A DNA stretch of 64,000 nt, from positions 310,001 through 374,000 of the forward strand of contig JAOTOL010001436.1 of the NCBI GenBank assembly GCA_034440575.1, read 5' to 3'. The stretch is from Imbricaverruca yamaguchii (lineage: Eukaryota; Arthropoda; Thecostraca; Neoverrucidae). Position numbers and translations under genes: made by a program. Shown here one piece after another: positions 5,422-64,000 of this stretch. Each line of letters begins with the position of its first letter. Position 1 is the first letter of the stretch. The notes below the pieces were generated by a model. The model was not told where the DNA came from. It was given only the letters and a program-made list of their open reading frames with translations, and ran no database searches.

Positions 5422-5470
5422 ATTATGGAGTTTAGGGGTGCATCAACTGCATCTCTCATGCAGCACCCAT
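5422..5470 (-). mobile_element. mini-hairpin element M1
   Basis: A copy of the short hairpin family (orientation given as the SINE-tail sense strand). The stem is GGGTGC (5436-5441) with GCACCC (5463-5468), flanked by GGAGTTTAG and CCAT. Both stem strands differ from the family GGGCGC/GCGCCC in a compensating way. No clear target duplication, so it is probably an older insertion. Confidence 0.7.
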
Positions 5471-6200
5471 GAACCTGTAATAATTATCATTAGCATAGGC
5501 ATCCATAGATTAGGTGTCTAAAAAATTAAACCAATAACATGGACTGATGAGTACACTATTCACTCAAATGTATATTGAAGCAGATATTTTCAGTGGCATG
5601 CTATCATGACAGATTTCCACATCCTACTGTTTTTGTTTTGACATCTCACATCTGATTTAAAATAATCATCTTAGCACTGATTCAACAAGATCATTGGCAC
5701 TATATGTCCTATGCATGTGATGCATCCTAAGCCCAAATAGCCACCAACAAGCTGTCATCACCATGAGGTGGATTGCCTCTGCACTAGTGAGATGGTTGGT
5801 GGGATACTGTTTTAGAACTTCACATTGGAATGTTGGCTTAAATGCAATACCATACATAGATGACCTTCCAGTGAATTTGCAGATGAAGGTAATTTCTGAT
5901 TACTTGGAATTCACTTTTTGAATACATTTATTGATTTCCTGAACATGTGATCACTAATTTCCTCTGCAACTGTATGCTGTTCAGTTGTGAGATAAAATAG
6001 CACCCAAAAGGGGGCTTGGAGTTGGGTAATATATGAATAAAAGCAATGTTAAACAAATAAAAACAGATGGAACATAGCCTTACCTAACCCAGCCTTACTT
6101 ACTCTCTAAGAAATTGTTTTTATGAAAACTTTGAAACAATCAAAAATTTCCCAAAAATTTGAATGAAAAAATGGAACATAACAATGAAGTGCTCATAATA
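5471..6200. other. unassigned AT-rich DNA
   Basis: Nothing supported. Confidence 0.5.
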
Positions 6201-6219
6201 ATGAAATTAGTTGTTGGTT

Positions 6220-6376
6220 GTCAGTTTCATGACACATCGACCATTGGGTCATATAGCATCACCAACATCTCACTCTGATTGGTTGCAGGCAAAGAGTAGC
6301 AACAGAACAGGCAAGACTCAAACCCACAACCTTTTGATTGTGAGACGAGCAACTTACTGCTAGGCTACTCATCCCC
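6220..6376 (-). mobile_element. tRNA-derived SINE with target duplication
   Basis: On the minus strand it starts GGGATGAGTAGCCTAGCAGT (A-box-like), carries GTGGGTTTGAGTC (B-box-like), an ACCAATCAGAGTGAGA core and the ATATGACC...GGTCGATGTGTCATG tail hairpin. A 19-bp target duplication with one mismatch flanks it (6201-6219 and 6377-6395, ATGAAATTAGTTGTTGGTT/...AGTT). It is the same family as the copy at 31602. Confidence 0.85.
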
Positions 6377-6395
6377 ATGAAATTAGTTGTTAGTT

Positions 6396-7640
6396 ACCTA
6401 TGTGGGCTCAATGGCACTGGTCAGAGCTCATCATTCACACAATATAATAAAACAACCATTCAAATAAAACATGAACTAACCTAGCCTAAGGTGGCATACA
6501 CTGGTCTTTTAACCTTAAAATGTCTTTGACTTGCCACAAAAGCCTAACATAGTTCAACCAAGCCTAATCCATTTGCCCTTTGAATAATTTATGGAAGTCA
6601 AATGTGGGTAAAACACATCTCGCGGCTTCCTTAAACTGCAATAATAACGACCTTTCAACAGTGCTTAACCCTACCTAGATATGTCCGATTTCCCTTCATT
6701 CAGATATAGCTCTCAACGATCAATTAATCGACGAACAACTCGGGAATGGTTCGTTTCCCCACTTAATCTAGCGAGGTTCACATTCAGAAATATTGCGCCA
6801 TTTGTGTATAACTTGAACTCAAGGCAAGAAAAACACATTCGTCAAATTAGCGAGAGGTTCATATTGACCAAGGTAACAAGAGACTACAGGTAACAGGTAC
6901 TCCAAACAACAGGTACTCCAAAGTTGGCTGTTCTGGTATAGTTAGTTTAAACTAAACAAAACCTACGGAAAGTGACGTCATATACCAGAAGTGTTTTCTT
7001 TGCTCCAGAATACTGCTGAATTATATTCTAGTTTTGGACTATACCAATAAATCTACTAAATATGGTGCTTTCATTTTAGCACAATTATGGCGCTTTTCTC
7101 ACGATTAGTTCCCCGTTCGTTGTAAAGCATATCAGTCATTCATTGAAGCTTCAATGTTCTATCTTATTTTGCTAACGTGCCGGTGGATTTGGACTGAAAG
7201 GCACCATCCACAGAAATAATTTATCCATGGCGTGGTTGATATTGAGAACACACACCTCAGACAATTTATGCGAGTTAAGGCCTTATACCCACAATGTCAA
7301 CTTGGTCAGCATGTCATTGATGCAATCTGGTGATTAATCTTAGCATGTGCGTTGGTCCCCTGTCAGTTATCATATTGTTCCTGTGTGCTATATGTAATCA
7401 TGGCATACTGTGCCATTCACCAACTTGTGGACAATTTGGTTATTGCTTGCCCATTGCTTCATGGCTGGGCAGTAGTGGTAGTAGGGTAAGTGGGAGTTTC
7501 CAAACACTTAATGCATGCAACAAATTGCTCTACTGCTGCTTTTGTGTGGCCAAACCAGTAATTATACTGTTTACTGAATTTAAAAAATGAACAAGGTATC
7601 TATATTCAGATGGTTGATAGATACCAATAAGGTATCTATC
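6396..7640. other. unassigned DNA
   Basis: No supported feature. A 70-codon open frame at 6681-6893 has no recognisable domain. Confidence 0.45.
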
Positions 7641-7649
7641 AAGGTGATC

Positions 7650-8295: not shown

Positions 8296-8299
8296 GAAT

Positions 8300-9830: not shown

Positions 9831-9899
9831 TTTTTCGGCACCATAATATCTTTCCTATCCGAACAGGCCGCCAGACATCCAGTCAGATCCTGACCGTCT

Positions 9900-10556: not shown

Positions 10557-10565
10557 GGGGAGGGA
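10557..10565 (+). other. candidate polypurine tract
   Basis: GGGGAGGGA immediately precedes TGTGCGAAC at 10566. This is the usual arrangement at the upstream edge of a 3' LTR. Confidence 0.45.
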
Positions 10566-11310: not shown

Positions 11311-11340
11311 GCAACTCTTGGGGCGCCCTCCAGCTACGCG

Positions 11341-11646: not shown

Positions 11647-11696
11647 TACGGACACTTGCTAGCCAGACTCATCCTCCGCCTTGTGCTTTTTTTGTT

Positions 11697-12110
<414 letters not shown>

Positions 12111-12256
12111 TACGGTCATGTCGTCGCTCTCTCTCTCTCTCTCTCAATCGGCTCACACCACACACCGCACCCCCCTTATCTTCGCCCCGGCACATCTTCC
12201 GGCACCCAGAACTGCCGACGTGGCGATAGAAGAACGTATCCTCAGATAGTATTTTA

Positions 12257-13612: not shown

Positions 13613-13614
13613 TA

Positions 13615-16280: not shown

Positions 16281-16281
16281 T

Positions 16282-16438
16282 GGAGCCGCGGTAGCTTAGT
16301 CGGTAGGGTGTTGGGCTCTTGACCGCAAGATTATGGGTCCGAGTCCCGCAACCAGCGGAATTACCGAGTCCACCCGCGACCAATCGGTTTGAGAAGTTGA
16401 CGACGCTATATGACCTAGCATTTAATTACGTTGTAAAG
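16282..16438 (+). mobile_element. tRNA-derived SINE
   Basis: The tRNA-like head is GGAGCCGCGGTAGCTTAGTC with GGTAGGGTGTTGGGCTC, and the B box is GGGTCCGAGTCCC. The core CGCGACCAATCGGTTTGAGA matches the core of the 31602 SINE. The tail (GACGCTATATGACC...) is diverged and lacks the terminal stem partner. No clear target duplication. Confidence 0.75.
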
Positions 16439-16545
16439 GAACCCAAGGTTCCTTTTCTGCTTCATGTGTTTGCTTCTCCCAATATATGTCTTGTGTTGTG
16501 CTTCCTCGATATATCGTTTAAATACGCACTCTGTTGGGCGCCAGA

Positions 16546-16550
16546 ATATA

Positions 16551-16616: not shown

Positions 16617-16619
16617 ACG

Positions 16620-18315
16620 TGCGCAAAATGACGAAAGCAGTCCATGCGCCCAAAATGCTCATTCACTTCAACCACAGAGTACGCAACCGAGAAACAATCG
16701 GCAGTGGGAGTGAGGGCCTTCTTCAATCTTGGCAGTCTCGTTTTCCCCAGATGTATGCTCCTCGTATTAAAGTCTGATTGATAAATAACTTTTGTTGCCG
16801 TATTTATGTCGTGCTGTACTGCAAAATGCGTGATATTTCAGGTTACACGACGCGAATAAAGAAATCATATTTTAAAAGGAAAATATTTTCTTTAGTCAAA
16901 AATAGAACACATTTAATTAAAAAGATGTATGGCATTACGTGGTAATTTTATATTCCAACCACAAATTAAGGTGTTATTAAAGTTGCTTCCGAGCAGGTCT
17001 GGCATTGAAATTGCTGTTGCCCCTGCATTATTACATGCATGACAGAAGTTTGATTCACATGGCTTCAGCGACGCAGCCAATTCATTTCGACTGAAAATAC
17101 CGAATAACGGTATGCGAACATGGGCACGGTGGGGAATGAACGGGGATGCTTCCCCAATCTTGGCAAGTTCCGCGTTAAGCATTTGACAATGCATGATAAT
17201 CGAACTGAAATCCTCATGCGGGCATCTAAAATCCGTCTTAGCGCTTACGGGTTCCACAAGGTTGTTGCCGAATCTAAATCGAGCCTTGATGGTACGAAAA
17301 GCGTGATTTTTTTATGTTGCGCCGGCCCTCCAGAAAGTTCAGGATTGTCACCTAAATATTTTAGCCAAAATTTTTTAGTCTGCTCCTGTCAAAGCAATGC
17401 TTGTCGCAGTCCTGGTGGCGTGTGTTCGCCGTGTATCGTAAGAGGCGTGGAGCGGAGCTTACAACTGGCATCGCTCTGTCTCCAGCACGGGTCAAATCAT
17501 TTGACTGTTCGGCAGCATGCACAATTGTTGGTATTGTCACCTTGATAATCATGTACTGTTAGATGCACACCTCGAGGAGCAGGGACTAATGTTGGTCGGC
17601 GTGTACTGGTGGGAGGGGAAAGGGCAACCGTTAGTTTTTAGCTCAATATTTGCGATGCACTGCCGTAGTGCCACAGATGATTAAATTCAGGGGGTCCTGT
17701 CTCCTGTCCCACCCCCGATGGTCCGCCGCCCGTGTCAGTAAGGGACAGTAGGCCTGGACACTGCCATAAGCGGTGACGTGTTCCGTAGTTCCTATGCCTG
17801 GCTGATTTGACCATAAAGTTAAGGTGGCAGAACCCCAGCCTTGCAGAATATCTGCGTATTTCCCTTCACTTTATGAAAAAGATCGTCCCATGTGAACAGT
17901 GTCTTAATTCACTGTCGCTTATTAGAAGGACTTCCCACAACGCACACAAAAAGCTGCCGGCCCCCAGGCTCCAACCAGCTTCCTCCGAGTCGTCAAACCG
18001 ACGCGCTACGAACTGCGCTACCCACACCGAACTACTCTGCCCGCTTAAGTTAAGTAGTGTTGATGGATATGGCATGGGTCTAAATAACACCATTTTACAC
18101 AATAACTAAGACGTTCATGTGAAAGCCTCCCATGATTATCGAAATAGCATGAAACAAGCTTTCAGATGACGTATAATTTATACCACTCACTTATACTTGT
18201 TACTCAGGAACGTACGCGGAAAAGTACCATTTCTCGCTGTCGTGATAACCTGCTGAACCCAAATCAGCGCCCAGATGACGTCCCCGGCTGCCAATAAACA
18301 TTGACAGTGCCCGCA
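16620..18315. other. unassigned DNA with unrecognised open frames
   Basis: Opposed open frames at 16913-17257 (minus) and 17120-17545 (plus) overlap. Neither shows a known motif or splice-consistent extension. Confidence 0.4.
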
Positions 18316-30300: not shown

Positions 30301-32283
30301 GCCTTCAACCCCGATCCGCCCATGATATTACTGGGCGCACCGACAAGATCCCAACAGTCCCAATGAAATCTCAAAATAGAAACCTTCTGCAGAAGTAAAT
30401 CTTTTGACTCTATCAGCCAATCAGCTGTTCCGGCATCATTGAATCCGTGAGTCAGAATGATCGTCTTCCGTTCTGAAGAAAAGTCCCCGAAGTCGGTACT
30501 GTTATATTGCACATCCTTCTCCGTGGAATTTCTGTAAATGCAGAAACAGAAGACGGTGAGACAAAGGGAGCTAAGCAGACATGTCGATCGGACAAAAGTT
30601 GGTGATTGTCGAAAAGCGCACCTTTCCACTCATCTTCATTTACACGCTGGGAAACTGGTAACTGTATTGCGTCTCGGTGACAGCGTCGAACGACACCTGA
30701 AAGCCATGCATTTCACAAATGATTGCAGAGTGAAGGAAGCGGCCATTAAGTTGAGACACCTATTAACTGAACATCTGTTATAGCAAGAAGTGCTGCCTTC
30801 CACACTCGCCGCTGTACAGTGGATAGTCTAGAACCGCAGACTGTCCACTGTACTCTTCCAAACTATCCGTGGAAACTCGGCACAGTGGCGTACAGCGTAC
30901 AGCGTTCAGCGTACAGCCCACAACCCCCAATTCCACATTCGACACAAGTCTACAACCAGGGGCGCAGCTAGGACTTTCTCAGGGGAGGTGGCCAAAAAAA
31001 AAACGGAGCAAAGGTCGCTTTCGGTGCGCGAAGTGTGTCGAAAATGTTTGCAGTCGCGAGGTAAAAATCTCAACCTGTTTTCTTTCATCTAGTTTGATCC
31101 AGCCCGGGCCCCCGCCCCGTTCTCCTGGCTGCCCCCCTGTGCACGACCCACAGCCGGCGCATTCCCCACAGTCGCCACGCCTGCACTCGCCACAATCCAC
31201 GGTCGGCTCACCTGGTGTACAGCCGAAACACCGTCTGAATCTTCTCCGGAGGATTGGGCAGGTTGGGGAGCGGTCTCATCAAATCGCTCCAGGGATACTT
31301 GGTGGTGAAACACCCCACATCGTCATAGCACACGTCGCCTGGGGGACGTAGCCAGTCACTTCGTTGTAGCCAGTCGTTGTTGTAGGTGTTCCAAGGCAGG
31401 GATGTTGTGCCAAGGCTGGTACACCATCACGTACAAACTGCATGTCTTCATCATGTGCAAGCTTCATAGTGCAAACTTCATGTGGACATGAAGCTTGTAG
31501 TCGTCAACTGAATGCATGTGTTACCACCGATTCATTATAGAGCTCACATCGTGTGATATTCGACAGGCCAGACGAAACATGCTGCCCCACCAGTTGCCGG
31601 CGGGGACGAGTAGTCTAGGGGTAAGTTGCTCGTCTCACAATCGAAAGGTGGTGGGTTCGAATCTCACCTATCCTACTCTTCGTCCGCGACCAATCGGCGT
31701 GAGAGATCGGCGACGCTACATGACTCAACGGTCGATGTGTCGTTAAAAAAAAACAATAACCAACCAACTAGTTGCCGGCTATGTAGTGTTTAACGTTAGC
31801 CATGCTACTGTATAAAGGAGCGATAAGATTGGATCGGGTTGGGTCGGGTCGGATCGGATCAGCTCCCCCACCCATCTTATTAAAATGTGATGTTTCTTCG
31901 TACCCGATTGGCTTGTGATTGTGAACGCAATCGACTTCGTCAGCTTTCGGCGTTCAAGGAAATTTTTCGTCGAGTTCAAGATTCAAATATTTTCCAAGCC
32001 ACGGCAAAGTTCAAATATTCGCCACTATGACAAATACACGAGACAAGACTATTCATCGAACTGCTGGAACTGTTGCACACCTCCGTGAAAAAGCGCTGTC
32101 TGGCAAATGTATCAGTGCATCGCAGCAAAAACAGGATCTAAGTGACCAAGTGTCAGGTGTGACCAGATCTGATCTGGTCTGGTCGGATTGGTTGAAATTT
32201 CACACCAGACAGCTTATTTTCGAGTACTAACCGGCAAGCGAAGAGCCGAGCTGGAGGAGGCAACAGAACGCGGCGAGCTTCAT
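21075..32283 (-). CDS. pancreatic-type triacylglycerol lipase with PLAT domain, 9 exons
   Basis: A secreted alpha/beta-hydrolase that splits ester bonds of triacylglycerols or phospholipids. The spliced CDS (32232-32283, 31212-31338, 30384-30531, 29427-29655, 28572-28705, 26187-26301, 23064-23303, 22207-22321, 21075-21351) totals 1437 nt, 478 residues, and every splice phase agrees. Residues 1-17 form a signal peptide. Mature-type start [10 protein letters not shown]; oxyanion-side HGF at about 83; nucleophile Ser165 in GHSLG; Asp188 in LDPAQPYF; lid between Cys248 and Cys276; His278 in CSHDRS; PLAT from about 349, ending FTPC like vertebrate pancreatic lipases. The full lid favours a true lipase over a lidless phospholipase. 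Length matches the family (about 450-480). Introns hold a LINE, an R1 repeat and other debris, but the reading frame is intact. Confidence 0.93.
22207..22321 (-). CDS. lipase exon 8 (PLAT start)
   Basis: Acceptor CCGTTTCAG|TG; reads [19 protein letters not shown] and then a VFVLNG strand, ending in phase 2 with donor GGAG|GTGAGA. This is the first part of the beta-sandwich PLAT domain that binds lipid or colipase-like partners. Confidence 0.88.
23064..23303 (-). CDS. lipase exon 7 (catalytic His)
   Basis: Acceptor CGGCAG|CG; reads [17 protein letters not shown] with catalytic His278, then a Cys-containing loop and the linker towards PLAT, ending SESFC in phase 1 with donor TGTG|GTGAGT. Confidence 0.92.
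23640..25235. other. lipase intron 6 sequence
   Basis: Intron between exons 6 and 7. It holds a C11 tract at about 23671-23682 and scattered repeat-like blocks without a second copy here. Confidence 0.5.
25240..26162 (-). mobile_element. 5'-truncated LINE in a lipase intron
   Basis: The minus-strand frame starts at [15 protein letters not shown] and continues [10 protein letters not shown] (catalytic Asp pair intact), [20 protein letters not shown] and a C-terminal [12 protein letters not shown] end, with at least two frame changes. It covers the palm, thumb and tail of a non-LTR reverse transcriptase of the Jockey/CR1 broad group. It has no 5' half and is not autonomous. Confidence 0.88.
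26187..26301 (-). CDS. lipase exon 6 (lid start)
   Basis: Acceptor TTCCAAG|GCC; reads [18 protein letters not shown] and most of the lid, ending DFL in phase 1. The donor is CTCG|GTGAGC. A LINE relic begins about 25 bases beyond this donor. Confidence 0.93.
26985..27950 (+). repeat. dispersed repeat R1, copy B
   Basis: Collinear with 1030-1830 on the same strand and lies inside the lipase intron between exons 5 and 6, opposite to transcription. Divergence from copy A is substantial, with several indels. Confidence 0.7.
28105..28335 (-). repeat. dispersed repeat R3, copy A
   Basis: The inverse of 41830-42005. The shared core is TTTTCGACGATA(C/T)CTC(A/G)TAAACGGG(C), plus a GGAGGG...AATCCGC block. 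The block also resembles the G-rich end of R1, so R1 and R3 may share a terminal module. Confidence 0.6.
28572..28705 (-). CDS. lipase exon 5 (catalytic Asp)
   Basis: Acceptor GAACAG|GT; reads [19 protein letters not shown] and [10 protein letters not shown], with catalytic Asp188 in LDPA. It ends GVGFKH in phase 0 with donor CAC|GTGAGC. Confidence 0.93.
28780..29390. other. lipase intron 4 sequence
   Basis: AT-rich intron; nothing else supported. Confidence 0.5.
29427..29655 (-). CDS. lipase exon 4 (nucleophile elbow)
   Basis: Encodes [10 protein letters not shown]... and [10 protein letters not shown] with the catalytic Ser165, ending ARIT plus one base. The donor is ACAG|GCGAGT, a GC donor; only this junction gives the conserved ITG-LDPA sequence with exon 5. 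Confidence 0.93.
29720..30350. other. lipase intron 3 sequence
   Basis: Unassigned intronic DNA; a GAGGGG...CACAGTC-type block is absent and no repeat copy was found. Confidence 0.5.
30384..30531 (-). CDS. lipase exon 3
   Basis: Acceptor TTTACAG|A completes Arg60. The exon encodes an Asn-rich loop and then [12 protein letters not shown], the HGF motif of the oxyanion region. It ends DLLLQK in phase 0 with a weak donor AAG|GTTTCT. Confidence 0.9.
31212..31338 (-). CDS. lipase exon 2
   Basis: Encodes the N-terminal [16 protein letters not shown] segment and ...VFRLYT(R). Acceptor CCCCCAG|GC, donor CCAG|GTGAGC. The two early cysteines match the first disulfide of pancreatic lipases. Confidence 0.93.
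31602..31769 (+). mobile_element. full-length tRNA-derived SINE
   Basis: The reference copy for the family. Head GGGGACGAGTAGTCTAGGGG (A box), B box GGGTTCGAATC, conserved core CGCGACCAATCGGCGTGAGA, tail hairpin GACGCTACATGACTC...GGTCGATGTGTC, then A9 and CAATAACCAACCAA. An exact 10-bp duplication AGTTGCCGGC (31592-31601 and 31770-31779) flanks it. It lies in the first lipase intron, opposite to transcription. Confidence 0.9.
32232..32283 (-). CDS. lipase exon 1 (signal peptide)
   Basis: ATG at 32283-32281, then [17 protein letters not shown], a classic secretion signal. The donor is G|GTTAGT and the exon ends in phase 1. Joining to exon 2 gives SLAG-DVCYDD, where signal cleavage is expected. 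Confidence 0.9.
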
Positions 32284-35309: not shown

Positions 35310-36400
35310 GTGGGAAATTCCCAGGATGGTTAAGGTGATGCAGGCTATGTCAATTTGCCTCTCAAGTTTTCTGGTGCATCCTGCAACATGTCATATAACA
35401 TTGCGAAGCGAACACGATATATCGGCAGACGATACAAGCATTTCTTAGTTGCAAAGCTAAAAGAGCATGGTAACAATAATATGCATCTAAAAAGTTAGCA
35501 AGTGGGCGACAAATTATAAGTTAAGTGTGAATCCCATACATTTTTTACTTTTGCTCCAAAAATGTGCCACATTGTCACCATTCCGAATCCGCGGGTTGAA
35601 CAGACTTTCGTTTTTTTTTTTTGCCGCGAGAAGAGGCTGCCAGTAGCAACATGCGTGATGGCCATGCAACCAGCTTCATGCTTTTGGAGAAAGTGCTGAT
35701 GATCAACCATCCCGTGTATCAACTAGACCCGGTCTACCCTATAGCACCCATCGGTCGCTGCCAGCCGGGAACGGCCGGGGCAGGACGTGTGAGCGTGCTG
35801 CGAGTCGGCCATTTAGTTGGCATAGTAGGTTGCAGAGGCCAATTATCGGCGTACGGGCGCTTCATCGGTTTTCGTCCAGCCGGCTGCTCCAGCTGCACGC
35901 CGGTGCCGACACCTCACCATGGTCACTTGCCAGCCGACCAGAGTGCGCGCCGACTGCGACTACAAATTGCACAACTAGGGTTGTAGAGCTGTTCTCTCTT
36001 TACCTCCCAACTACACCAATGCCGTCTCTATCTTCCGTCACAAACCTTTTCTGTCTTCTTCCACACCCCTACCTGGTGCAGGGCAACCTCAACGCCTATC
36101 GCCAGGCATGGGACTGCCATATCGCCTGCCCACGCGATCACCACATTGAAACACTTCTCAAGCAGGGGCACAACCAATGGGGTGTCCTCTCCTCATTAAC
36201 AAGCAAAAATACACTAGATCAAACAGGAAATTTTGAGATTTTCATCGCACCAAACAGAAGATTTTCCCCACGCCTTGCGCACCGAATGCGTCCTCTATTT
36301 CATGATTTCTCAGCCATCCCCCCCCCCCCCTCCCCCTCTTGCGAAAATCTTGACTGCGCCACTGTTCTCTACATATACAGCATAGCATTCTCAAATGAAC
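35310..36400. other. unassigned DNA between LINE relics
   Basis: Overlapping open frames at 35621-35986 and 35830-36444 are not recognised. A C13 tract lies at about 36320. Confidence 0.4.
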
Positions 36401-36429: not shown

Positions 36430-37500
36430 CGGTGCTGCCATTGATCTCTCCCTTGCTTCGGTTTCCATTTCTTTTCTCTCTTCGTAGCCCGTCCAACCTG
36501 ACCCACTTTTTAGCGATCCCTTCCACATTCACTTATCACTTGAACGCTCAGCCCAGGCTAATGATTACTCATGTTTACCACGCTGAAACGTTCGCAAAGG
36601 AAAATGGCCGTCATTCACCCAGGAAACTGACACTGTCTGCCATTCAAATCCCACCCCTAACTTCGGCATACCTCCATGCTATTTTACTTGTTCCAGAAAC
36701 ACACATACCCATACTCGTCCCCAGGCGTAAACAAGTGCCGTAATGGGACGGCGAATGTCAACGCACCTTCGCTCTGCGGCGGCGGGCTGAGCGGGCATTT
36801 CATCAAAATCTCACCATACAAAATATGTTAGAAGACTGCAAGGCCAAAAACATCTGCAACTTACCATTGGGACCAAAAACAAAGCTGACAATAATATTCA
36901 ACTATTTTAATATATTTACCCCATCGATCAACTTTAATAAATTCGCTCATTTTACAATGGCAAAACCCCACACCGCACATTTACACAACTGACTATTAGC
37001 CAACGCCCATCGCAGAACCTAGAGCCGTTGCGGACTACTTCACTACTATTACGCTGTCTCCTCAAACACCCGGCCCTCCCACATTAGTTGGTTATTGGAG
37101 TTTAGGGGCGCATCGACTGCGTCAGTCATTCAGCGCCCGGCACTCCCACATTATTTGATCACACCCTTGTCGCTTGACTGGCTCAGGAAAATCCGAACCC
37201 ACAACGCCCTCTATGAACTAAGCGTATCTCTATCAATGGTAACTAGCACTGCTGTTGGCTCCTACCAACTTGCATACTCTTTCCAAAATCTTTCTCCGAT
37301 AAAGTCAACCTTCCGGCGCTAAATAAACTATGGCCCGACGGTACTCCCCCCCCCCCCCCCACCCCCACACACACACACACTCTTCGTCTACAAGCACTAT
37401 CATTCCCATCGCTAAACATTCCAAACCACAGCACCTACTTTCCAGCCATCGCTCTCACTAGTTATCTCCAACATTTTTGACAGCATTGTCACTAGGGTGT
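36430..37500 (+). pseudogene. LINE linker and fingers relic, plus strand
   Basis: Contains VP-stop-WDGECQRTFALRRRA at about 36734, the typical VPWW..EC..A...R spacer after a LINE endonuclease, here with a stop replacing one Trp. Near 37420-37495 is LSLVISNIFDSIVTR, the start of reverse transcriptase. Opposite in orientation to the relic at 32.7-35.3 kb and interrupted by element M2. Confidence 0.6.
37087..37137 (-). mobile_element. mini-hairpin element M2
   Basis: Stem GGGCGC (37106-37111) with GCGCCC (37133-37138), inner GAC...GTC pairing, and GTTGGTTATTGGAGTTTAG outside. A 16-bp target duplication CGGC(C/A)CTCCCACATTA (37071-37086, 37138-37153) flanks it with one mismatch. It inserted into an already decayed LINE. 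Confidence 0.88.
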
Positions 37501-40140: not shown

Positions 40141-40268
40141 GTGCCGGTGAACCGGCCGTCCAGTTCCGACTGTACGCGCTGGTGGTGCGGCGGCTCGCTG
40201 GGCGTCGCACTCCAGCACTACTGCGTGGAGCAGCCGTCCGACGTTACCGGCTGGGACGCCACACCTTG

Positions 40269-40322
40269 GTTGGTTATTTGGGCTTTCGGGCGCATCGACT
40301 GCGTTGGTCATACAGCGCCCAT
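40269..40322 (-). mobile_element. mini-hairpin element M3
   Basis: Stem GGGCGC (40288-40293) with GCGCCC (40315-40320); GTTGGTTATTTGGGCTTTC outside. An exact 14-bp duplication GACGCCACACCTTG (40255-40268, 40323-40336) flanks it. A perfect duplication indicates a fairly recent insertion. Confidence 0.92.
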
Positions 40323-40743
40323 GACGCCACACCTTGTCTGGTGTCGCCTCGTCTTTGCTTCTAAAACCCACTCGTTTATAAGACGGAGCAAATGACCTCA
40401 ATACACCGGCACAGCTCAAAACACATCCTCTCCCCTGTTTTCCATGATGAATTACTACGCATCATGCTCTTTGGTGAAGAAGCGGCACGTGGGACTCCAC
40501 TCAAGTCTGTCTGCAGTGAACGAATGATATTCAACTGAATCATCTAGATTGTATATGTGAAGCATGCCTTATTGGTGCCACCGTACGGGCTCAAGTTGAA
40601 TACTACCGGTACAGGATAGCTCGGCAAGGGCAGCGAAGATTTCGGAAAAGGTTGCAAGTCAACACCCGGGTAGGTTTTCAGCTTTTCAAAGATGACACGT
40701 CTATTCAATTACAGAAATATGCACAATCTGGTAAACCGCGATA

Positions 40744-43059: not shown

Positions 43060-43860
<801 letters not shown>

Positions 43861-46119: not shown

Positions 46120-46860
46120 GTGCTGAAGGGTGACACAGATAATACATTGACACACACGACACACAAACTGCAGCCATATGATGTCATTGCGTCAGAGGGT
46201 GCACATGCCAGCAAGGTGGGAAAAGAAGACTGATCTTTGATTTTCTGCAACAAAAATATCAGTTCGCCTGAAAATTGCCCTCTTGTTTTCTCCCGGTAAG
46301 GCTGTTCTCGGGAAGGCTGAATGGCTTCGAAAAAGTTTCAAAAACCTACAGGTTGGCTGGTTGGAAATTTGGACTCAGGGGGGCATGGAGTGAGATGGTC
46401 ACACAGCGCCCACCAAAAACCTACAGAAAAGTACAAAAAGTAGCTTCTGATGTCACAGACAGAAACCCATCCGATTGAATGGCGAAAACCAATTCTTTCT
46501 AAAGCAAAGCTTCCAAAGCATGAAGTCAACCTTCCATGGTGGGAATGCTGCTCAGCACGTTTGCTTAGCTACTCACAAACTCGTGCTCATGCGTTGGTAT
46601 CGTTGATATGGTTGAAAAGCTTGCTGTTATGCACCATGTCTATTGTGTTTTATCAATCCTTTCCCAAGTCGTCTATACCAGCATTGATATTTCACACTGT
46701 ACACCAGAAACACTTAGCTCAGCAAGTGAAAACAGCTTCCCTCCGTTCACTGCACATAACTGAGGTGCATATGTGCACTCTAAAATCAACATGGAAAGTT
46801 CACGACGCTATTTCAAGTAAAATAATACAAAAACTTACGACCATTATCACCAGTCATTAA
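46120..46860. other. intronic or intergenic DNA
   Basis: Nothing supported downstream of exon 7 of the zinc-finger gene until the minisatellites. Confidence 0.45.
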
Positions 46861-47416: not shown

Positions 47417-50400
47417 CTGCCGGGCCGAGGACGTGTGCCTGTGATCGGACACTCAGACACTAGGCTGTGGTGCTTCGAGGTTTAACACATCGCTAAACCG
47501 TGCGTGCACCGCAAGCCAATCAAATCTTCGGCAGCGGTCCACGAGGTGAAGCATCCGGTGGTTAGCCCGCGACCAGGCATGACTACTCGCTATACTTCAG
47601 CTCATCCCTGGATATCCTCGCTGTCCCGTAACGTAAATGGACCACATGCTCCAGTCTACCCAACGTGTCTGTTAAATAGCATGCAAGTCTTCATCTCCAA
47701 CCTCCGTAAGACATTGGCTTCACAAATCGCCACTAACTCCGCAGTATGTAGCCATGTATGACATATAAAGACATAAAAGACATAAAAGATTAGTGCAACT
47801 ATGAGCCACAGGGGCCCTTCTTGGTTGCACTCTGTACACTGAACCAGGTGCCCACCAAAACTGTCAATCAGCCCTCCCTGTAATACTGAAAAGCAAGCCC
47901 TATATTCTTATGATTGTCTATGCTGATTTTAAAGATGTTCAATGTGCTGCTACTGACGATGTTTTCTGGCAGCTGGTTCCAGTGTTCCACTACCCTGTTG
48001 GTGAAGAAAGTTTGCCTTAACCTTGTTCTGCTGTGGTTAATTTTAATTTTGAATTTATGACCTCTAATTGCATCATTTCTGTTAAATTCAAACATTTCCC
48101 CAAGGTATCCCCTCTCCAGACCATTGACAAATTTAAAGACCTCGATGTGATCTCCTCTCAGCCTTCTATATCTAAGTGAAAACATTCAATTTCTTCAATC
48201 TTTCCTCATATGCCAGGTTGCTTATGCCATTAACCATTTTTGTAGCCCTCTTTTGTACTCTCTCCAAAAGCCAACAATCTTTTTCATAGCTAGGAGACCA
48301 AGCTTGGATGCAGTATTCCAAATGTGGCCTGACATATGCACAGTAAAGCTTCCTGATCACTTCCTCACTTCTGTATGATACATTCCTATTTATTGCCCCG
48401 AGCATTCTCAGTGCCTTCTTCCTGGCTTTCTTGGTCTGTTCTGATGCCCCCAGTTTTGTGTTTAGAATAACACCTAAATCCTTCTCCTGTTGAGTCACTG
48501 ATAGCACTTGGCCACCCATCAAGTATGGAGCCTTCATATGCTGCTTACCTACATGCATGATTTTGCACTTATCAAAGTTAAATTTCATTTGCCATTCTTC
48601 GGACCACTTCACAAGTTCGTCTAAGTCTTTTTGCAGCGAGATATGCTCATCCTGACCTGTTATTGCCCTAAAGACCTTCAAATCATCCGCAAATTTCAAA
48701 ACTTTACTGCTTAGGCCACTTTCAATGTTATTTACAAATATAATGAACAGTAATGGCCCTAGTACTGATCCCTGGGGGACTCCACTAAGAACATTTTGCC
48801 ATGATGACTTTGTACCATTTAGCATCACTCTTTGCTGTCTATCTGAAAGCCACAACTCTATCCATTTTAAGATGCTACCTGCAATACCATGGGACTGAAG
48901 CTGTATCATTAACCGTTTATGGGGTACCTTGTCAAAGGCCTTACTAAAGTCAAAATATGCTACATCAACCTGATTTCCCTGATCAAATTGTTCTGTGGCG
49001 AAGTTAAAAAAGTCCAAGAGGTTTGTGAGACACGATCGTCCTTTTCTAAACCCATGTTGAGTATTTTGAATCAATCTGCTACCTTCCAGATAAAATTGAT
49101 TCGAGTACCTTGCATACTAGGGATGTGAGACTTATTGGCCTATAGTTTTCAACTTTCCCTCTTTCTCCTTTCTTGAAAATAGGAACTACATTTGCCCTTT
49201 TCCAATCGGTTGGAATTTCATTATGTGAAACTGATCTACAAAATATTATACTAAGTGGAAATGCCAGTTCCTTTTCAGTTTCCCGCAACACCCTAGCATA
49301 AATTTCATCAGGTCCTGCTGCCTTATTTTGCTTTATTTTCCTGATATGATTGTAAACAACATCACTATCAATGAAATCAACATCATTTGTCAGATCCCAT
49401 GTCACTGAACTATGGTGTATGGTCGGCAGATTGGTAATATCTTCCAATGTAAACACTGATTTGAACTGCTTGCTCAGCTCCTCAACCATCTCACTATCCT
49501 CACCCAATGTAGTCCCGTTTACTTCCAGTGGACCAATTGTGCTAGAAACTTTACTCAGCTTGTAGAAACTAAAGAACTTTTTACTGTCCCCATTACAGTT
49601 TCTAGCTAAATCCAGTTCTTTTGCTCGCTTTGCTGCTCTGGTTTTTTGCTTCACAGTGTCTCTAGCTTTTCGATACGCCTTTAGATTAACGACATTTGAG
49701 GCTTCTTTAAAAACTCTAAATGCAGTTTTCTTAGCCTTAATTGCTTTTATCACGTCTGGTGTAAGCCATGCTGGCTTTCCTACCCTTCTTTTGCGTCTTT
49801 GCTTTTGGGGGACATGTCTAATCTGAGTTTCCTTCAAGTAAGATTTGAACTTATGAACTTAGTAAGATGTATGGTGGTAAAGTAATGTTGTTGTGGTTGT
49901 CCCACGTATCAATTCAGAACACGGTCCACTGCCAGTATTTGACCCGCCTGTGCAATTTCGTGAGTAGTATCGACATCAACCTATTTGTTTCAAGACCTTT
50001 GTTTTAAGAAGCTCTGGGACCATGCTTCTTTCCCGGCAGTTGCAAAGAATGCATCGACTATTGTTGAGATGATCTCACATGGTAGCATTCGCAGGCGGTT
50101 CATCCTCGCGACGTCCCACAGTCCGATACGAGCCTTTTGGAAGTGTAAACATACTCTGACGCAGAAAGGCCGTAGTCTGTGCCCCCTTTTCCGGCTAATC
50201 ATCGATACCATACCATGAAGGAAAACGGTGTTGCATAAGAGAAGCCCTGGAAATTATTTCCACCTCAATGCGTACCCGGCTTGTCCCATGGCGCCTTATA
50301 CGAGTTCGAACTCAGTTAGAATATATGACTCCAGAATAGCCAAGGGTGCCACAGTAATCCCCAGCTTGTCACAGATGCCTGCACAAAGCATACCGATAAT

Positions 50401-53400
50401 CGCTTTGTTTGATTTGTTTCCTCGAATACAATATGCATTGCTGCTCAGCGTCCTTTCATTGAGAGCACGACATATTCCCATCGATATTTGCACCAAGTTG
50501 AGCACGGTTGACAGACATTATCCAGGCACAATATGCGTTAGCACAATACGCATAACAATTATGGAGGGCCGGCCTGCATGCGCGTAAAACATGGCGCCAG
50601 ATAATTGCACAGAGTAGGTCAGAAATTGGTAATATAGAGTACTAGAAATATAGAAATTGGTAGTTCGTGAAATTGGTACGTTCGTACACAACAGAAACAT
50701 GAAGGCAACGAAATCGCATGTAATGCAACCATATTAAAGTGAATCATTTGCCACAATCTGAGCAGACGAGACCACGAAAGATTACAAAGAGTCAAGCAGC
50801 TAGGACCGCGAGAGTGCCGAGACCTCGCTAACCTGCAGACTGTTGGCCCGCTCGGCTACGGAGCTGGCAGCCGTCTCCTCCATGGCCGAGAGACACTGCT
50901 CCCAGATGCCGACCGCGCTGGTGTCCAGCGTACTGATCCGCCCCAGCGCCGAGTACATGCGCTGGCGCAGTCGCTCCTTGCGCGGCAGATACCTGTCGGC
51001 CGGCTCCTGGCGACCAGTCACGAGGAAACGTCACACCGGCCACTCTCCATGGACGCGGTCTCGTGAGACGGGAGAGAGATAACGTTTTTGTATTGGATTT
51101 TGTATTGTATTGGATGCCCCAGCCCGGTATGCACGGGAAACGCACGCTTTTTCTTTACTTGCGTCCATGTCCAGTTTACCTCTTTATGAGATATGTTATC
51201 TCCAGATCTCATGCCCTTCACCTACAGAACAACGTATCACATGCTAAACTCAGTTGCTATTTTGGTCCTCGAGTCAGACCCTCACCTCGGCAGAACAGTG
51301 TCATACACCCTGCCACATCTGGGGTGTGATACCACCGACATGCGACTATGTAGTGCATACCAGATCAGGTCAGGGAAGAACACTGCCACTCCATATTGCA
51401 CTGCACATCTCCTCCGCCACTGACCACCGGCAGTTCACACGTCACCTCCACCACTGACCACCGGCAGCTCACACGTCACCTCCACCACTGACCACCGATA
51501 GCTCACACGTCACCACCACTGACCACCGGCAGCTCACACATCTCCTCCACCACTGACCACCGGCAGCTCACACAGCACCTCCACCACTAACCACCGGCAG
51601 CTCACACGTCACCTCCACCACCGACCACCAGCAGCTCACACAGCACCTCCACCACTGACCACCGGCAACTCACGCAGCACCTCCACCACTGACCACCGGC
51701 AACTCACACATCTCCTCCACCACTGACCATCGGCAGCTCACGCAGCACCTCCACCACTGACCACCGGCAGCTCACACATCTCCTCCACCACTGACCACCG
51801 GCAGCTCACACAGCACCTCCACCACTGACCACCGGCAGCTCACACGTCACCTCCACCACCGACCACCAGCAGCTCACACAGCACCTCCACCACTGACCAC
51901 CGGCAGCTCACACAGCACCTCCACCACTGACCACCGGCAGCTCACACATCTCCTCCACCACTGACCACCGGCAGCTCACACAGCACCTCCGCCACTGACC
52001 ACCGGCAACTCACACGTCACCTCCACCACTGACCACCGGCAGCTCACACAGCACCTCCGCCACTGACCATCGGCAGCTCACACAGCACCTCCGCCACTGA
52101 CCACCGGCAGCTCACATAGCATCTCCACCACTGACCACCGGCAGCTCACACATCTCCTCCACCACTGACCATCGGCAACTCACACAGCACCTCCACCACT
52201 GACCACCGGCAGCTCACACGTCACCTCCGCCACTGACCACCGGCAGCTCACACAGCACCTCCGCCACTGACCACCGGCAACTCACACGTCACCTCCACCA
52301 CTGACCACCGGCAGCTCACACGTCACCTCCACCACTGACCACCGGCAGCTCACACAGCACCTCCACCACTAACCACCGGCAGCTCACACAGCACCTCCGC
52401 CACTGACCATCGGCAGCTCACACGTCACCTCCATCACTGACCACCGGCAGCTCACACAGCACCTCCACCACTGACCACCGGCAGCTCACACAGCACCTCC
52501 ACCACTGACCACCGGCAACTCACACATCTCCTCCACCACTGACCACCGGCAGCTCACACAGCACCTCCGCCACTGACCACCGGCAGCTCACACGTCACCT
52601 CTACCACTGACCATCAGCAGCTCACACGTCACCTCCACCACTGACCACCGGCAGCTCACACAGCACCTCCGCCACTGACCACCGGCAACTCACACATCTC
52701 CTCCACCACTGACCATCGGCAGCTCACACGTCACCTCCATCACTGACCACCGGCAGCTCACACGTCACCTCCACCACTGACCATCGGCAGCTCACACAGC
52801 ACCTCCACCACTGACCACCGGCAACTCACACATCTCCTCCACCACTGACCACCGGCAGCTCACACAGCACCTCCACCACTGACCACCGGCAACTCACACA
52901 TCTCCTCCACCACTGACCACCGGCAGCTCACACAGCACCTCCGCCACTGACCACCGGCAGCTCACATAGCATCTCCACCACTGACCACCGGCAGCTCACA
53001 CAGCACCTCCACCACTGACCACCGGCAGCTCACACAGCACCTCCGCCACTGACCACCGGCAGCTCACATAGCATCTCCACCACTGACCACCGGCAACTCA
53101 CACAGCACCTCCACCACTGACCACCGGCAGCTCACACAGCAACTCCACCACTGACCACCGGCAGCTCACACAGCACCTCCACCACTGACCACCGGCAGCT
53201 CACACAGCACCTCCACCACTGACCACCGGCAGCTCACACAGCACCTCCGCCACTGACCACCGGCAGCTCACACATCACCACCATCGCTGACCACTAGGTA
53301 TGCTCATTTTGTCAAAGTGTTAGCAGTTATAGCTTCAACAGGTTTATTGCATTATTGTAGCTATTTGCAATACATTGGCACCAACATTGATAGCTTCTTA

Positions 53401-56400
53401 ATGTGCATCTATGGGCCGCACACCAAGCCTACAAATGTTTTATTCAGGCTACTTTGGTACCTCGAGAATTAATAAAGATAACTATATCAACCTGCACCAG
53501 CTATGAACTGCTTAAATGATAATAAAGTATACTTGAAAATGTGTGGTGAAACCACAAGAATTTCCCATTTGTACCACTATGTGTACCCAGCTGCCATGTG
53601 TCTATTGCTGATGGACTTAGTACTTGGAGTGGATAGATCACTTTGGATGCTTCATAAGATAGTAAGTCATGAATACACAAAGGAATAATGACAAGGTTAT
53701 TTTTGTGGAAAAAAAATGAGCAAACCAGTGATCCATTGGATGGTTTGATGGTTGGTTGGTTGGTTGGTTGGTTGGTTGATTGGTTGGTTGGTTGATTGGT
53801 TGGTTACTTAGGCTTGAGTGTGCAACAACCATGATGACCATATTGCGCCATTACCAGTAAATAAGTGATTAAAAATAAATGCGACATTTTCTGCAAATAT
53901 GAATCAGGTGCATTATGTGTGTGAAACGTAACTGGTGTGGACATAAAGTTTGAAAGCATAGCTCACATGCACGCAGGTTCCAAAACTGAAGCAGAATTTC
54001 AGATGATATAGAATATGAAATGATTCAGATTATCACATCATGTTCCTGTCTCACTTGATTACATGATGATCGTAACACCTCATAACTATACATCGTGTAC
54101 AATGTATGCAATATCTACTCTGCATGCCAACATTTTATTAACTTGATTAACGTGCTGTAAGGTACGGCGATGGCTATAGGCTGAGAAAGGCCAACATACA
54201 TAGTTTCAAAATGAGCAAAACGTTTAACCTAGAGGTCAGCTCGGTTTAATTTTGGCATGATGCAACTTCACCCATAGTGACAGCCTAGAAAAAAATGCAG
54301 GTTGATGTAATTATCTAGATTCGTTTCTGATAATATGAAATAACCTAAACCATTCTTAATTGCGCCATGCGCGACCATGGAACATTTTGAATGTTTAATA
54401 CAACGAAGAATGGCCCTTAGATGCTCCTGGGATTTAGACATTGCGTGAGAAGAAGTATACGACCTTCAATGTACCAGGAGGTGCTGAGTTTACATCAAAA
54501 GTAACGTTAAGGATTATACTGCATTACTCAAATATAGTAAAGTAATACAGTATGAGTAATACAGTATAATCATTAACGTTACTTTTAATGTAAACTCAGC
54601 ACCTCCTGGTATATTGAAGGTCGTAATTTTTTTTATCACGCAACATTTGTAATGTGTACATTGATGCACCAATGGGCTCAAAATGGCTGAAAGCTACGAT
54701 TAAAGTTGAAGCTATAACTTTTAAGTTTTATCAAAATGTCTGGCCACCGTCAGCACATCGCCTCCGCCAGTAACCATCGGCAGCTCAAATATCACCTTTT
54801 TCACATCCCACTCATGGACGTGAGAGGAGGGTGATGTACGACGTACGGGTAAGATGAGAAGTACGGTCATGGGCGCTAAAGGACAACGCACTCAACGCGA
54901 CCGAATACCCACGCAATCAAACAAAGGTAGTGGTGGTTGGCTCATAAACAACCAATTGAGATTAAATCGTCGCAGGTCAGGCGTCATTTAATATCACATG
55001 AATCAATAGCATTACACGTTTTAATCGTGATTAAATGGCGTCTACACACAGGGACCACTGGCAGTCAGATTAAATGTCAGTCAGAAGGAAAATAAGCACG
55101 AATAATCCTCTAGATGTCATTCAACATGAATTGTCAAACAATTAAGAAGGGCTTACTACTTACAACTGATCAACAATTACATCTACATAAGGTCAAGGCC
55201 GATGAGCTGTGCCATCGAACCAAGCCTGTTTTCCACTCAAGAGGGACAGGGATTGTCCAGCATATCATTCTCCTAACCCCGCTCCACCACCAATCCATAA
55301 GAACGAGGACATCAGCATAATATGCAGAGCACCATAGAGGCGATGGGCTATAATTGTAAACCAAACGTTGCGAAGTAAATTTAAGAAGTTATACTAGGTC
55401 GTCACGCTTTAGTCGATCACTGCTATATAATGGCACTAACCCAGCGCAGACCACCTACCCCGGATGGAACCCGACGGGCCTCGACGCCGTCGTCGGCCGA
55501 CGGCGGGGTCAGAATGTCATCTGCGTCTGCGTCTGCGTCGATATCGCCGCCGCTGCGCACGCCGCACACTCCGGCGCGCTGGGCGGCGTTACGCAGGTCC
55601 TGCCTGTTGAGCAGCAGGGTGCGGGCGGGCGCGCGCTCCGGAGCCTCGCACCGCCGCACTCCGCTCATGATGGCGTCGAAACTGACGCCGGTCACCACCT
55701 TGTCTGTAGGAACGTAGATTGATTGATTGATTATTTGGGTTTTGGGGCGCATCAACGGCTACTGGTTATGTAGCGTCCACTGTGGGAACGTAGAGGAGGG
55801 GGTCACCGCACACCCGTGCGTGACATGGACGAGGTAGAGCATCCTCATGGGGTGACAAGGAGATGTACCAGATGGATGGATGAACCGTCAATATTTGGAT
55901 AGATGTGAGAACCACTTGAGTGGTTGGCTTCAGACAAAGCAACGAGGTTCAAAGCCAAGGAGTGGATCAAGTGGGAGGGCGGCAGCATTATGAAGCAGAA
56001 TTTCATTGCAACGCAGCTTCGAATGGGACACAACACGAAAAATGGCAGCCAAATTATTACTGCCTGACCTGAACCGACTGATGGATTGCTTTAGCCGCAG
56101 CCGAGCACTGATCAGTGAAACCACTAGCAAGCCAAATCCTCCCTGGCCACAACCATGCCATCCGCGATCATGGTCCAACCGTCCCTGATCCTCCAGACCC
56201 TCGTGACCAGACAGACCCTAGCAGTCAAGATTCATCCTGACAACAGAGGCCCCATATAATCAGAAAACCCTTTGTTGGCAGGGTATGATTTATGTTTTGT
56301 TGGAAATGTTGATTTGGAGATAAAAATGTGAGCCAACCAAATTCTGGGCGGGTAATTGTAGTATTGTGTGGCGACGTCTAGGTAGAGGACACAGCACGTG

Positions 56401-61737: not shown

Positions 61738-61750
61738 CTGTCAGAGATGA

Positions 61751-61808
61751 TTGGTTGGTTATTTGAGTTTTTGGGTGCATCGACCAGGTTTGGTCATTTA
61801 GCACCCAT
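61751..61808 (-). mobile_element. mini-hairpin element M5 at a splice acceptor
   Basis: Stem GGGTGC (61773-61778) with GCACCC (61801-61806); inner GACCA...TGGTC pairs perfectly; GGTTGGTTATTTGAGTTT outside. The flanking sequence on both sides looks like a diverged copy of the exon A acceptor (minus strand TCATCTCTGACAG and TGATCTTTCAGCAG). Confidence 0.8.
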
Positions 61809-61894
61809 CTGCTGAAAGATCACTGCTACTGACTGCTGCTGACACAGGCACTAGATACTGACACACAGTAACTCCTGATGCATGAATGCATATG

Positions 61895-61948
61895 TGTGAG
61901 TGATGGTGGTTTTAGGGCACATCGACCATGGCTGGTCATTTAGTGCCC
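61895..61948 (-). mobile_element. mini-hairpin element M6
   Basis: Stem GGGCAC (61915-61920) with GTGCCC (61943-61948); inner GACCA...TGGTC. An exact 17-bp duplication ATGCATGAATGCATATG (61878-61894, 61949-61965) flanks it. Confidence 0.92.
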
Positions 61949-61969
61949 ATGCATGAATGCATATGCAAA

Positions 61970-62670
61970 CTGTCACACTTCATTAGTAATTTGGGCTTGA
62001 CAGTGCATTAAACTGTCACACTTTACACACATTGTAAATTGTCCGCATAACATATTTGTTGAGCAATCACCTGAATTGCACTTTAGAGCAATAAATATAG
62101 CATTGATGGCTTTACTAAATCAATCAATTAATGGTTATCCATCTTAAATTTACCTCCAGGTGCCCATGTGATGGCTAGTGCCAACATAGCACAACAGTAT
62201 TTCTTGTGATAGTTCCACTGCTACCTACCCCATGAGTGTCACCATGGATGACAGGGCTAGTGCTGGGATTCCCCCCCCCCCCCATCCAGTGCTTCCAAAA
62301 ACTTAGCATTATGTCATGACATAACATGAATAAAATACATCTAAGTGTTCTCATTCTTCCTATCCAACATCCATAGCAATGTCCATGCTATCACTTTACC
62401 TGAACAAAGCAGAGGCTGGAGTCCAGCAGAACAATCCTTGTACTAGCTTCTCCATTACCTAAAGTGCACTGTGAATCTGAGCTGTGAGGCATTTTGCAAT
62501 ACTTTGGTTTCATGTCTTCATCCATGCTAGAAGCAAACATCATTTTCAAAATACTTCTGATGAGCAATTACTTGAGTGTTTAAAATGCCAACACAACTCA
62601 GGAGTATGTGTGGAAATAGATTTTGTGCAGAACTAACATGAAAATATGAAAATATGAAAATACTAACATG
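61970..62670. other. unassigned AT-rich DNA
   Basis: No exon could be linked to the zinc-finger gene here although its start should lie upstream. A C11 tract lies near 62271. Confidence 0.45.
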
Positions 62671-62682
62671 AACTAACATGAG

Positions 62683-63192
62683 GTTTTAGTCATAGGGGAT
62701 TCCCGGGTTCGGTACATGGATCGAACATTTTGTAGCAAGAACCCCAGCAGACGGATGTGTGTTTGCTACCCGGGAGCGCAGGTGAAAGATGTTAGGGATA
62801 GGCTGGAGGGAGTAATGAGGGGAAGTGGAGAGGGTGCAACGGTAATTGTGCAGGTTGGAGTTAACGATGTAGGAAAAAATAATACAGAGGAAACAATGAA
62901 GGCCTATAGGGCTTTGATAGGTAGTTTAGCAGGAAGTAGGAAAAGAGGAGTGGTGACATCCATCCTCCCTATGGTCCATGCAAGCATGGAGTGGTATTCG
63001 AGGGCCATTGGGCTCAATACCAGGGTGGCCAACATTTGTAAGGAGCTTGGGGTGCAGTTCTTGGATTTGTGGGGGGAGTTTTGGGGGAGGACGGAGATGT
63101 TTGCTTTAGATGGATTACATCTGAGCAAGAGAGGAGTAGAATTGCTCAGCAATAGGTATGAGGAGGCTCTCAACAGGAAACAGGGAAACTAG
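62683..63192 (+). CDS. LINE ORF1 SGNH-esterase domain (N-terminally truncated)
   Basis: Frame VLVIGDSRVRYMDRTF, VGVNDVGKN and DGLHLSKRGVELLSNRY: block I Ser in GDSR, block III Asn in GVND, and block V Asp and His in DGLH. This is the lipase-like esterase found in CR1 ORF1 proteins, thought to aid membrane or RNP interactions. It ends at a TAG at 63190-63192. The upstream coiled-coil part is absent. Confidence 0.88.
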   Translation, partial: VLVIGDSRVRYMDRTFCSKNPSRRMCVCYPGAQVKDVRDRLEGVMRGSGEGATVIVQVGVNDVGKNNTEETMKAYRALIGSLAGSRKRGVVTSILPMVHASMEWYSRAIGLNTRVANICKELGVQFLDLWGEFWGRTEMFALDGLHLSKRGVELLSNRYEEALNRKQGN

Positions 63193-63254
63193 GCAGGACA
63201 TGGGGGGATGTAGCTGATAAAGAGAGAAGCATAGCAAGCAATGGAAGGAATAAT

Positions 63255-64000
63255 TTATCATGTTTTTATGTCAATGCCAGAAGTGTTAGGAACAAAATTG
63301 GGGAACTGCATGCATATATGTTGTCTGAACAGCTAGATTTGGTGTGCATAACAGAAGCATGGGTTAACGAAAGCATGTTTGGAGACAACTTGCAAGAATT
63401 TGAATTGACAGGCAATACAATACAACATGCATGCCTATCAAAGAGAGGCAAGGATAGGAGGTGGCATTCTCTTGTATGTTAGGCAAGTAATGAAATGTCA
63501 TTACATAGAGGATGGAGTACATAGTGCAGGAGTAGAATCTTTGTGGTTAGATATAATTATGAAGAATGGAACAAAATTTAGGATTGGGGCATTCTATAGA
63601 CCTCCAGACCAGAATGAAAACACTGACAGGCTGATGCAGGAAGAGATAAGTAGGAGAGTACAGGAGAGAACTATTTTGTTGGGGGATTTCAACATAGCAG
63701 GATTGGGAAACAAAACAATAGGTGTAAGCAAATCAGAAAGATGTTGGTGGTGTGTTGGAGTTTAGGGGCGCGTCGACATCTATGGTCATTTTGCGCCCAT
63801 AATCAGAAAGATGTTTCATGGCTTGTTTTGAGGACAATTTCTTCTTTCAAATGATACACGAGCCTACAAGGGAAAATAAAATATTAGATCTAGTGCTTAC
63901 TAATGAGGAAAATTTTGTGCAAACTGTTAACGTAGGAGAGACCTTTGGTAATAGTGATCACAACATTATACGCTTCTCATTATATGTTGGAAGGGTAGCA
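63255..64000 (+). pseudogene. LINE apurinic-type endonuclease, interrupted
   Basis: SCFYVNARSVRNKIGELHAY, DLVCITEAWVNESMF (catalytic Glu region), GGILLYVR, IGAFYRPPDQ and LLGDFNIAG (catalytic Asp/Asn region) are followed, after element M7, by IHEPTRENKILDLVLTNE and GNSDHNIIRFSL (SDH catalytic motif). A frameshift near 63420 and the M7 insertion at 63746 break the frame. Confidence 0.88.
63746..63800 (-). mobile_element. mini-hairpin element M7 inside a LINE
   Basis: Stem GGGCGC (63766-63771) with GCGCCC (63793-63798). An exact 15-bp duplication AATCAGAAAGATGTT (63731-63745, 63801-63815) flanks it. Removing the element and one duplicate restores continuity of the LINE, which shows the empty-site state directly. 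Confidence 0.95.

Follow-up and report, generated by a model that had tools for sequence, protein, structure and literature searches.

The window analysed here is a 64,000-nucleotide stretch of the genome of the thecostracan Imbricaverruca yamaguchii (contig JAOTOL010001436.1, positions 310,001 to 374,000), and scattered along it are seven very short elements, M1 to M7, each made up of a hairpin and a repeat tail. These minimal elements are the 3' ends of long interspersed nuclear elements (LINEs) and not the tails of short interspersed nuclear elements (SINEs), RNase H having been seen in one of the LINE families only. Across the genome, copies belonging to three tail families (a, b and c) insert with target duplications, start preferentially at the base of the hairpin and are seldom of in-between length, and SINEs mostly pass that base. 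We think it somewhat probable that LINE machinery copies fragments of LINE RNA that have their 5' end at the base of the hairpin, and that the products are promoterless retroposons of about 55 nucleotides (nt).

A preferred start at the base of a hairpin

A sequence-only reading of the window had described seven ultra-short elements with one left edge, a hairpin and target duplications in five cases, exact in M3, M6 and M7. All seven are where that reading placed them, all on the minus strand, and the edge, the hairpin and the duplications are as it described (Table 1). The 3' ends, which it took to be alike, fall into several tail classes. Read in the sense of the tail, an element opens with one free base and TGGGCGC, or a sequence close to it, and continues into a loop that contains an inner stem. 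GCGCCC or a close variant closes the hairpin, and a short linker leads to tail repeats of the CCAA, CAAT or CACC kind. M7 sits within a LINE open reading frame (ORF) carrying the motif GDFN, which we take to be of the endonuclease type. Excising M7 together with one copy of its duplication gives an open frame of 91 codons through this ORF, running to the end of the window; the M7 insertion breaks the ORF.

For a wider view we searched the assembly to which the window belongs (GCA_034440575.1; 1430 contigs with 767,457,503 bases altogether). It contains 1816 exact occurrences of the 17-mer ATGGGCGCTAAATGACC and none of the reversed control. Exact tail words gave 897 occurrences for family a, 733 for family b and 462 for family c, together 2092 places, again with no occurrence of the reversed controls; some of these places are one locus assembled twice (6 of 120 inspected). 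With old copies included, the genome could possibly hold some 100,000 minimal elements, a rough extrapolation from 12 per 64 kb in a window that was picked for them. The tail words exclude the left arm of the hairpin, so that copies were not chosen by their edge. We took them in contig order, 50 of the 733 for family b, 50 of the 897 for family a and 20 of the 462 for family c (loci L031-L150), and removed six near-duplicate loci (L086, L103, L116, L118, L119 and L134), which left 114 copies.

Truncation at the 5' end generally leaves LINE copies of many lengths. Such a spread is not what the sample holds: 77 of the 114 copies start at the hairpin base, 17 are long and 20 start elsewhere near it. 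Base starts make up 40 of 49 copies in family b, 28 of 46 in family a and 9 of 19 in family c; the long copies, which continue into the LINE, number 3, 7 and 7, respectively. The sequence-only reading had named as refuting a set of copies that begin at random within longer SINEs; this was not found.

Target duplications mark the same edge in most base copies. Among the 77 base copies, 58 (b 36, a 15, c 7) have a duplication scoring at least 9 that ends between -3 and +2 from the T of TGGGCGC, with pooled counts of 2, 4, 10, 26, 11 and 5 at positions -3 to +2. We also compared 93 distinct copies that bear the arm, a larger set overlapping the first. Exact repeats of at least 10 base pairs (bp) outside tandem contexts are present in 54 of them; 45 of these end in that interval, as does an exact repeat of this length at 0.8% of 1500 random places. 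The 45 duplications span 10-17 bp (37 of them 12-15 bp) and enclose inserts of 49-67 nt. The left edge is best placed at the T of TGGGCGC, and the base before it usually belongs to the target. Where target-derived, that base is A in 19, C in 10, G in 7 and T in 6 copies (n = 42). Where one extra base lies between duplication and T, it is A, the LINE's own base, in 8 of 10 copies. Since the preceding base is free, or the LINE's A when extra, the insert begins mostly at T and in some copies one base earlier. The T itself also matches the target in 16 of the 42 copies with an edge at 0 or beyond (38%, somewhat more than a quarter).

The hairpin

A two-stem hairpin followed by a repeat tail is common to all seven M elements. 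Folded over 14 sequences, the hairpin has 85.5% of its cells paired, 30-46% with partners slid by 1-3 columns, and at 7 of 10 pairs both sides have changed. None of 500 shuffles matched its paired percentage or its covariation score. A covariance model of it found 14 hairpins in the window at E < 1e-7: M1-M7, five others that lack a SINE head, and the tails of two SINEs. The model was trained on these same 14 rows, which had first been found by an nhmmer profile of M1-M7 (E 2e-17 to 0.35); a fifteenth profile match, at 35401 (E 0.16), was excluded from it. Because the model was built from those rows their scores are high by construction, and the informative part is the gap to the next match, at E 0.07. 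The hairpin pattern had no match in viral and prokaryotic collections. A stem-loop followed by short tandem repeats, here (AC)n, (AATC)n and (AACC)n, is the conserved tail of a stringent-type LINE.

The LINE parents

What lies upstream of the hairpin in long copies identifies the parents. In the long family-a copy L063 a 466-amino-acid open stretch contains RNase H (PF00075, E 3.7e-9), and its closest named proteins, among the best 7996 candidates, come from Amphibalanus amphitrite (55% identity) and Pollicipes pollicipes (53%). According to an excerpt of a barnacle genome paper, a comprehensive repeat library is lacking for barnacles (PMC8917513). Judged by eye, family b resembles the family-a LINE; several of its copies have frame breaks. 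From the last ORF stop to the hairpin is 81 nt in family a and 66 nt in family b. In family c, of which about 180 nt upstream were inspected, five copies share one sequence and two share another. Long copies of all three families have GTTA directly before the hairpin, with few exceptions, and GTTA also precedes 9 of the 50 non-SINE hairpins that we came across in the window and the loci. For only some LINE contexts is this GTTA predicted to pair with the TAAA that follows the hairpin, and such pairing plays no part in our argument.

Family b allows the short and long forms to be counted. There are 733 tails (25-base word) vs 50 exact LINE junctions (27-base word), which means that most family-b copies end no more than about 22 nt from the hairpin base. 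An exact word 468 nt upstream is present in 32 of the 50 junctions, so at least 64% of the family-b copies that pass the base extend some 445 nt more.

Short copies exist in each of the three families and carry the marks of their own LINE. Loop and tail markers could be read in 35 of the 46 family-a copies: the pair TTG and G occurs in 1 long copy and 19 short ones, TAG and A in 3 and 5, and TCG and G in 1 and 2, while TCG and A (3 copies) and TGG and G (1 copy) were read in short copies, a comparison in which long copies are few. Three short copies also keep 7 nt of upstream sequence between duplication and T: TCTGTTA of LINE-b in L031 and L091, and ACAGTTA of LINE-a, plus one base, in L089. 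Family markers and retained upstream sequence together point to repeated birth from LINE RNA. The sequence-only reading had seen self-contained minimal retroposons rather than random truncations. It was right that the copies are not random, but the self-propagation it implied sits poorly with the markers and upstream sequence of each copy's own LINE and with the lack of any tRNA-type head found on them.

Comparison with the tRNA SINE

A SINE-tail origin of the elements does not stand: this stem is the LINE 3' end, and tails of the tRNA SINE keep their bodies. The window holds two full tRNA-headed SINEs and a decayed third (Table 1), with related but different hairpins; the outer stem is CGACGC/GTGTCG in the first SINE vs GGGCGC/GCGCCC in the M elements, and the tails are alike. 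One version of the SINE tail word has 59 exact copies in the genome. We inspected 20, and all 20 keep the SINE body, 18 also passing a tRNA-box test. Not one of them begins at the base of the hairpin; in L151 the truncation falls within the head, judged by eye. Among 15 distinct SINE-type tails in the window and loci (354 kb), 14 have a body and a tRNA box. The fifteenth, in L115, has no body and follows immediately on a LINE-a tail; it may represent a SINE copied as hairpin only, a nested insertion or a template switch. With 34 of 35 inspected SINE tails keeping their body, we rejected a SINE origin. The contrast between 77 of 114 base starts and 0 of 20 in the SINE has a Fisher P of 4e-9, for a SINE that has a different stem and may have a different partner LINE.

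Minimal elements have one hallmark of SINEs, a 3' tail in common with a LINE, as long copies end in the same hairpin and tail. ARAGORN and Rfam scans showed on them no head derived from an RNA polymerase III transcript (tRNA, 7SL or 5S). ARAGORN found no tRNA gene in the window, and at the gathering score Rfam found there only the SINE head at 31604-31675. The upstream sequences of short copies have no common body beyond the duplicate loci.

How a 55-nucleotide copy might arise

The pathway we favour would begin with a fragment of LINE RNA whose 5' end is at the foot of the hairpin, either the U that precedes the GGGCGC stem or the next base out (A-U). Cleavage might create that end, or else trimming that halts at a hairpin held by protein. 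The fragment would stay bound to the LINE protein, which would nick the target and prime there (target-primed reverse transcription), and the enzyme would copy the fragment to its end, yielding a promoterless insert of 49-67 nt flanked by a target duplication of 10-17 bp. We count the extra A, the LINE's own base in 8 of 10 copies, as support for such run-off. A broader proposition is that, in this genome, several LINE families have as a main substrate not the entire LINE RNA, nor a SINE, but a defined 3' piece of the LINE RNA severed at the recognition hairpin's foot, and that the promoterless retroposon of about 55 nt is its outcome; we put this forward tentatively, regarding it as evenly poised. 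As to how the end is made, a 5'-to-3' exonuclease halted by a hairpin usually leaves several bases, and an exonuclease stop fits the three copies at -7/-8 better than the main edge. A ribosome standing at the stop codon was rejected as the roadblock, given that the stop lies 66-81 nt upstream of the hairpin.

The same edge could be set by the enzyme and not by the RNA. A reverse transcriptase anchored on the hairpin of a long RNA would unwind it, lose its anchor at the 5' foot and drop off. The edge does coincide with the end of the hairpin in all three families, the many copies that run hundreds of nt past the base (32 of 50 in family b) look like the second of two processivity states, and the match of the first element base to the target in 16 of 42 copies also suits this account. 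We nevertheless regard it as unlikely, because the tRNA SINE, with the same hairpin architecture and type of tail, passes the base in 20 of 20 and 14 of 15 cases, though its partner LINE may be another one. Less probable again is an independent family, whose tiny RNAs would come from a few source loci with their own or a borrowed promoter and parasitise a LINE through the tail. A preferred 5' end, the family-b excess of tails over LINE junctions and the near-identity of young copies, partly expected from sampling by exact words, would fit such a family; it is harder to reconcile with short copies in each of three families, with family-a markers shared with the (few) long copies, with the 7 nt of their own LINE kept by three short copies and with the lack of a tRNA-like head in the scans. 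That SINEs or LINEs were simply truncated at random 5' points, the constant edge being a product of chance or of how copies were selected, we hold to be very improbable. Internal and slightly longer copies do occur, as do L138 and L151 with their ends elsewhere, but tail-only sampling put 77 of 114 starts at one place, 58 with a duplication there vs 0.8% at random places.

Several observations weigh against a fragment ending at the hairpin base. That it is the RNA that ends there, and not the enzyme, we infer from genomic copies. Sixteen of the 114 copies (b 4, a 9, c 3) were classed as starting inside the arm, some of them diverged rather than truncated, and four as slightly longer than the base start, one of which (L069) is a chance match. 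Starts are more mixed in family c than in the others, with 9 base, 7 long and 3 internal ones among 19. Nineteen of the 77 base copies have no duplication that reaches the score within the interval, and there the edge is set by homology alone. L138 seems to be truncated about 64 nt upstream (duplication AGTACATGAG, 10 bp, by eye), so intermediate ends exist. Taking exact tail words in contig order biases the sample toward young copies. L115 would count here too if it is a hairpin-only SINE copy, and the SINE comparison is not one between identical templates, because the stem of the SINE hairpin is a different one and the SINE may depend on another LINE.

L138 and a second family-c copy, L146, have only 64 nt upstream of the hairpin in common; they may mark a further preferred start in the LINE 3' region.

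Relation to known elements

The closest parallels lie among LINEs with a recognised tail. Zebrafish ZfL2-1 and ZfL2-2 and eel UnaL2 likewise end in a 3' stem-loop and short repeats that are common to LINE and SINE and recognised by the LINE protein, and the ZfL2 protein, of the stringent type, binds its 3' stem-loop and needs it for retroposition (excerpts of PMC4176376). Unlike in those systems, the tail alone, with neither SINE head nor LINE body, is here the form sampled most often in families a and b; it has a single preferred 5' edge, and the LINE-a ORF carries RNase H. Many truncated copies below 1 kb are recorded for Bov-B (excerpt of PMC13295347). Truncated LINE copies in general resemble the minimal elements in combining a LINE 3' end with a target duplication, but in them no one start dominates as it does here. 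The tRNA-derived SINEs, those of this genome included, have a related hairpin and a CCAA-type tail; the minimal elements lack their tRNA head and body. Miniature inverted-repeat transposable elements (MITEs) and other hairpin-forming DNA elements are short, partly palindromic and flanked by duplications. Ours differ from MITEs in having the palindrome at one end only and a variable tandem repeat at the 3' end; this tail, together with duplications of no fixed length (10-17 bp), led us to reject a MITE.

To our knowledge, from a search that was not exhaustive, about 55 nt makes these the shortest retroposons with a fixed start and target duplications. Literal sequence words of the elements have no occurrence in open-licence papers. 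Among the matches listed from that literature, no title or opening of an abstract tells of LINE copies that consist of the hairpin only and share a fixed start, which is weak evidence of novelty.

If the fragment pathway is right, these natural insertions show that hairpin and tail suffice for a LINE to insert an RNA, and the scraps that start at the hairpin base would be a natural record of the template that LINE copying machinery uses. Which RNA ends LINE enzymes use, and why most LINE copies are incomplete, could then be read from thousands of precise junctions. For annotators there is a practical side: units of 55 bp can presumably miss length cut-offs, or be taken for noise or SINE scraps.

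Other features of the window and loci

Besides M1-M7, the window has an eighth clean minimal copy and several hairpin copies that are older or have a longer tail (Table 1).

Table 1. Hairpin elements and SINEs of the window (positions in the window; duplications are target duplications)
Feature	Position	Strand	Remarks
M1	5415..5470	-	Hairpin and degenerate tail; duplication not clear
M2	37084..37140	-	Duplication 37069-37085 / 37136-37152, 17 bp, 1 mismatch, overlapping the element's GGG; length judged by eye
M3	40269..40322	-	Exact 14-bp duplication 40255-40268 / 40323-40336
M4	55719..55779	-	Duplication 55704-55718 / 55780-55794, 15 bp, 1 mismatch
M5	61751..61808	-	Hairpin and tail; duplication unclear
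M6	61895..61950	-	Exact 17-bp duplication 61878-61894 / 61949-61965; 2 bp common with the element end
M7	63746..63800	-	Exact 15-bp duplication 63731-63745 / 63801-63815; within LINE ORF
Eighth clean minimal copy, beyond the earlier seven	46352..46413	-	Exact 13-bp duplication CTGTAGGTTTTTG (tail sense)
Old hairpin copy, same starting edge	5693..5749	+	Repeat of only 7 bp, CAACAAG
Old hairpin copy	16617..16675	+	Duplication not clear
Hairpin copy with long (CCAA)n tail	53735..53851	-	Duplication not clear
Old hairpin copy, start at ATGGGCGC	54869..54924	+	Duplication not clear
Full tRNA-headed SINE	31597..31770	+	tRNA-like head 31604-31675 (Rfam); related but different hairpin
Second full tRNA-headed SINE	6207..6376	-	Comparison case
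Decayed third SINE	16291-16415

The LINE that M7 interrupts occupies 62716-64000 on the plus strand, where an ORF with a GDSL-lipase domain (PF13472) precedes the GDFN ORF; we presume it to be CR1-like. A second LINE, at 48172-49837 on the minus strand, is represented by two ORF pieces, one with a reverse transcriptase (PF00078). At L025:1700-2250, outside the window, several hairpin copies are repeated along with their flanking sequence, and a minimal copy has apparently been captured there in a tandem repeat. Within the window, 51404-53294 is a long array of about 56 copies of a 34-bp unit, and long TC dinucleotide runs at 11696-12084 and 43188-43464 give rise to spurious Leu-Ser ORFs.

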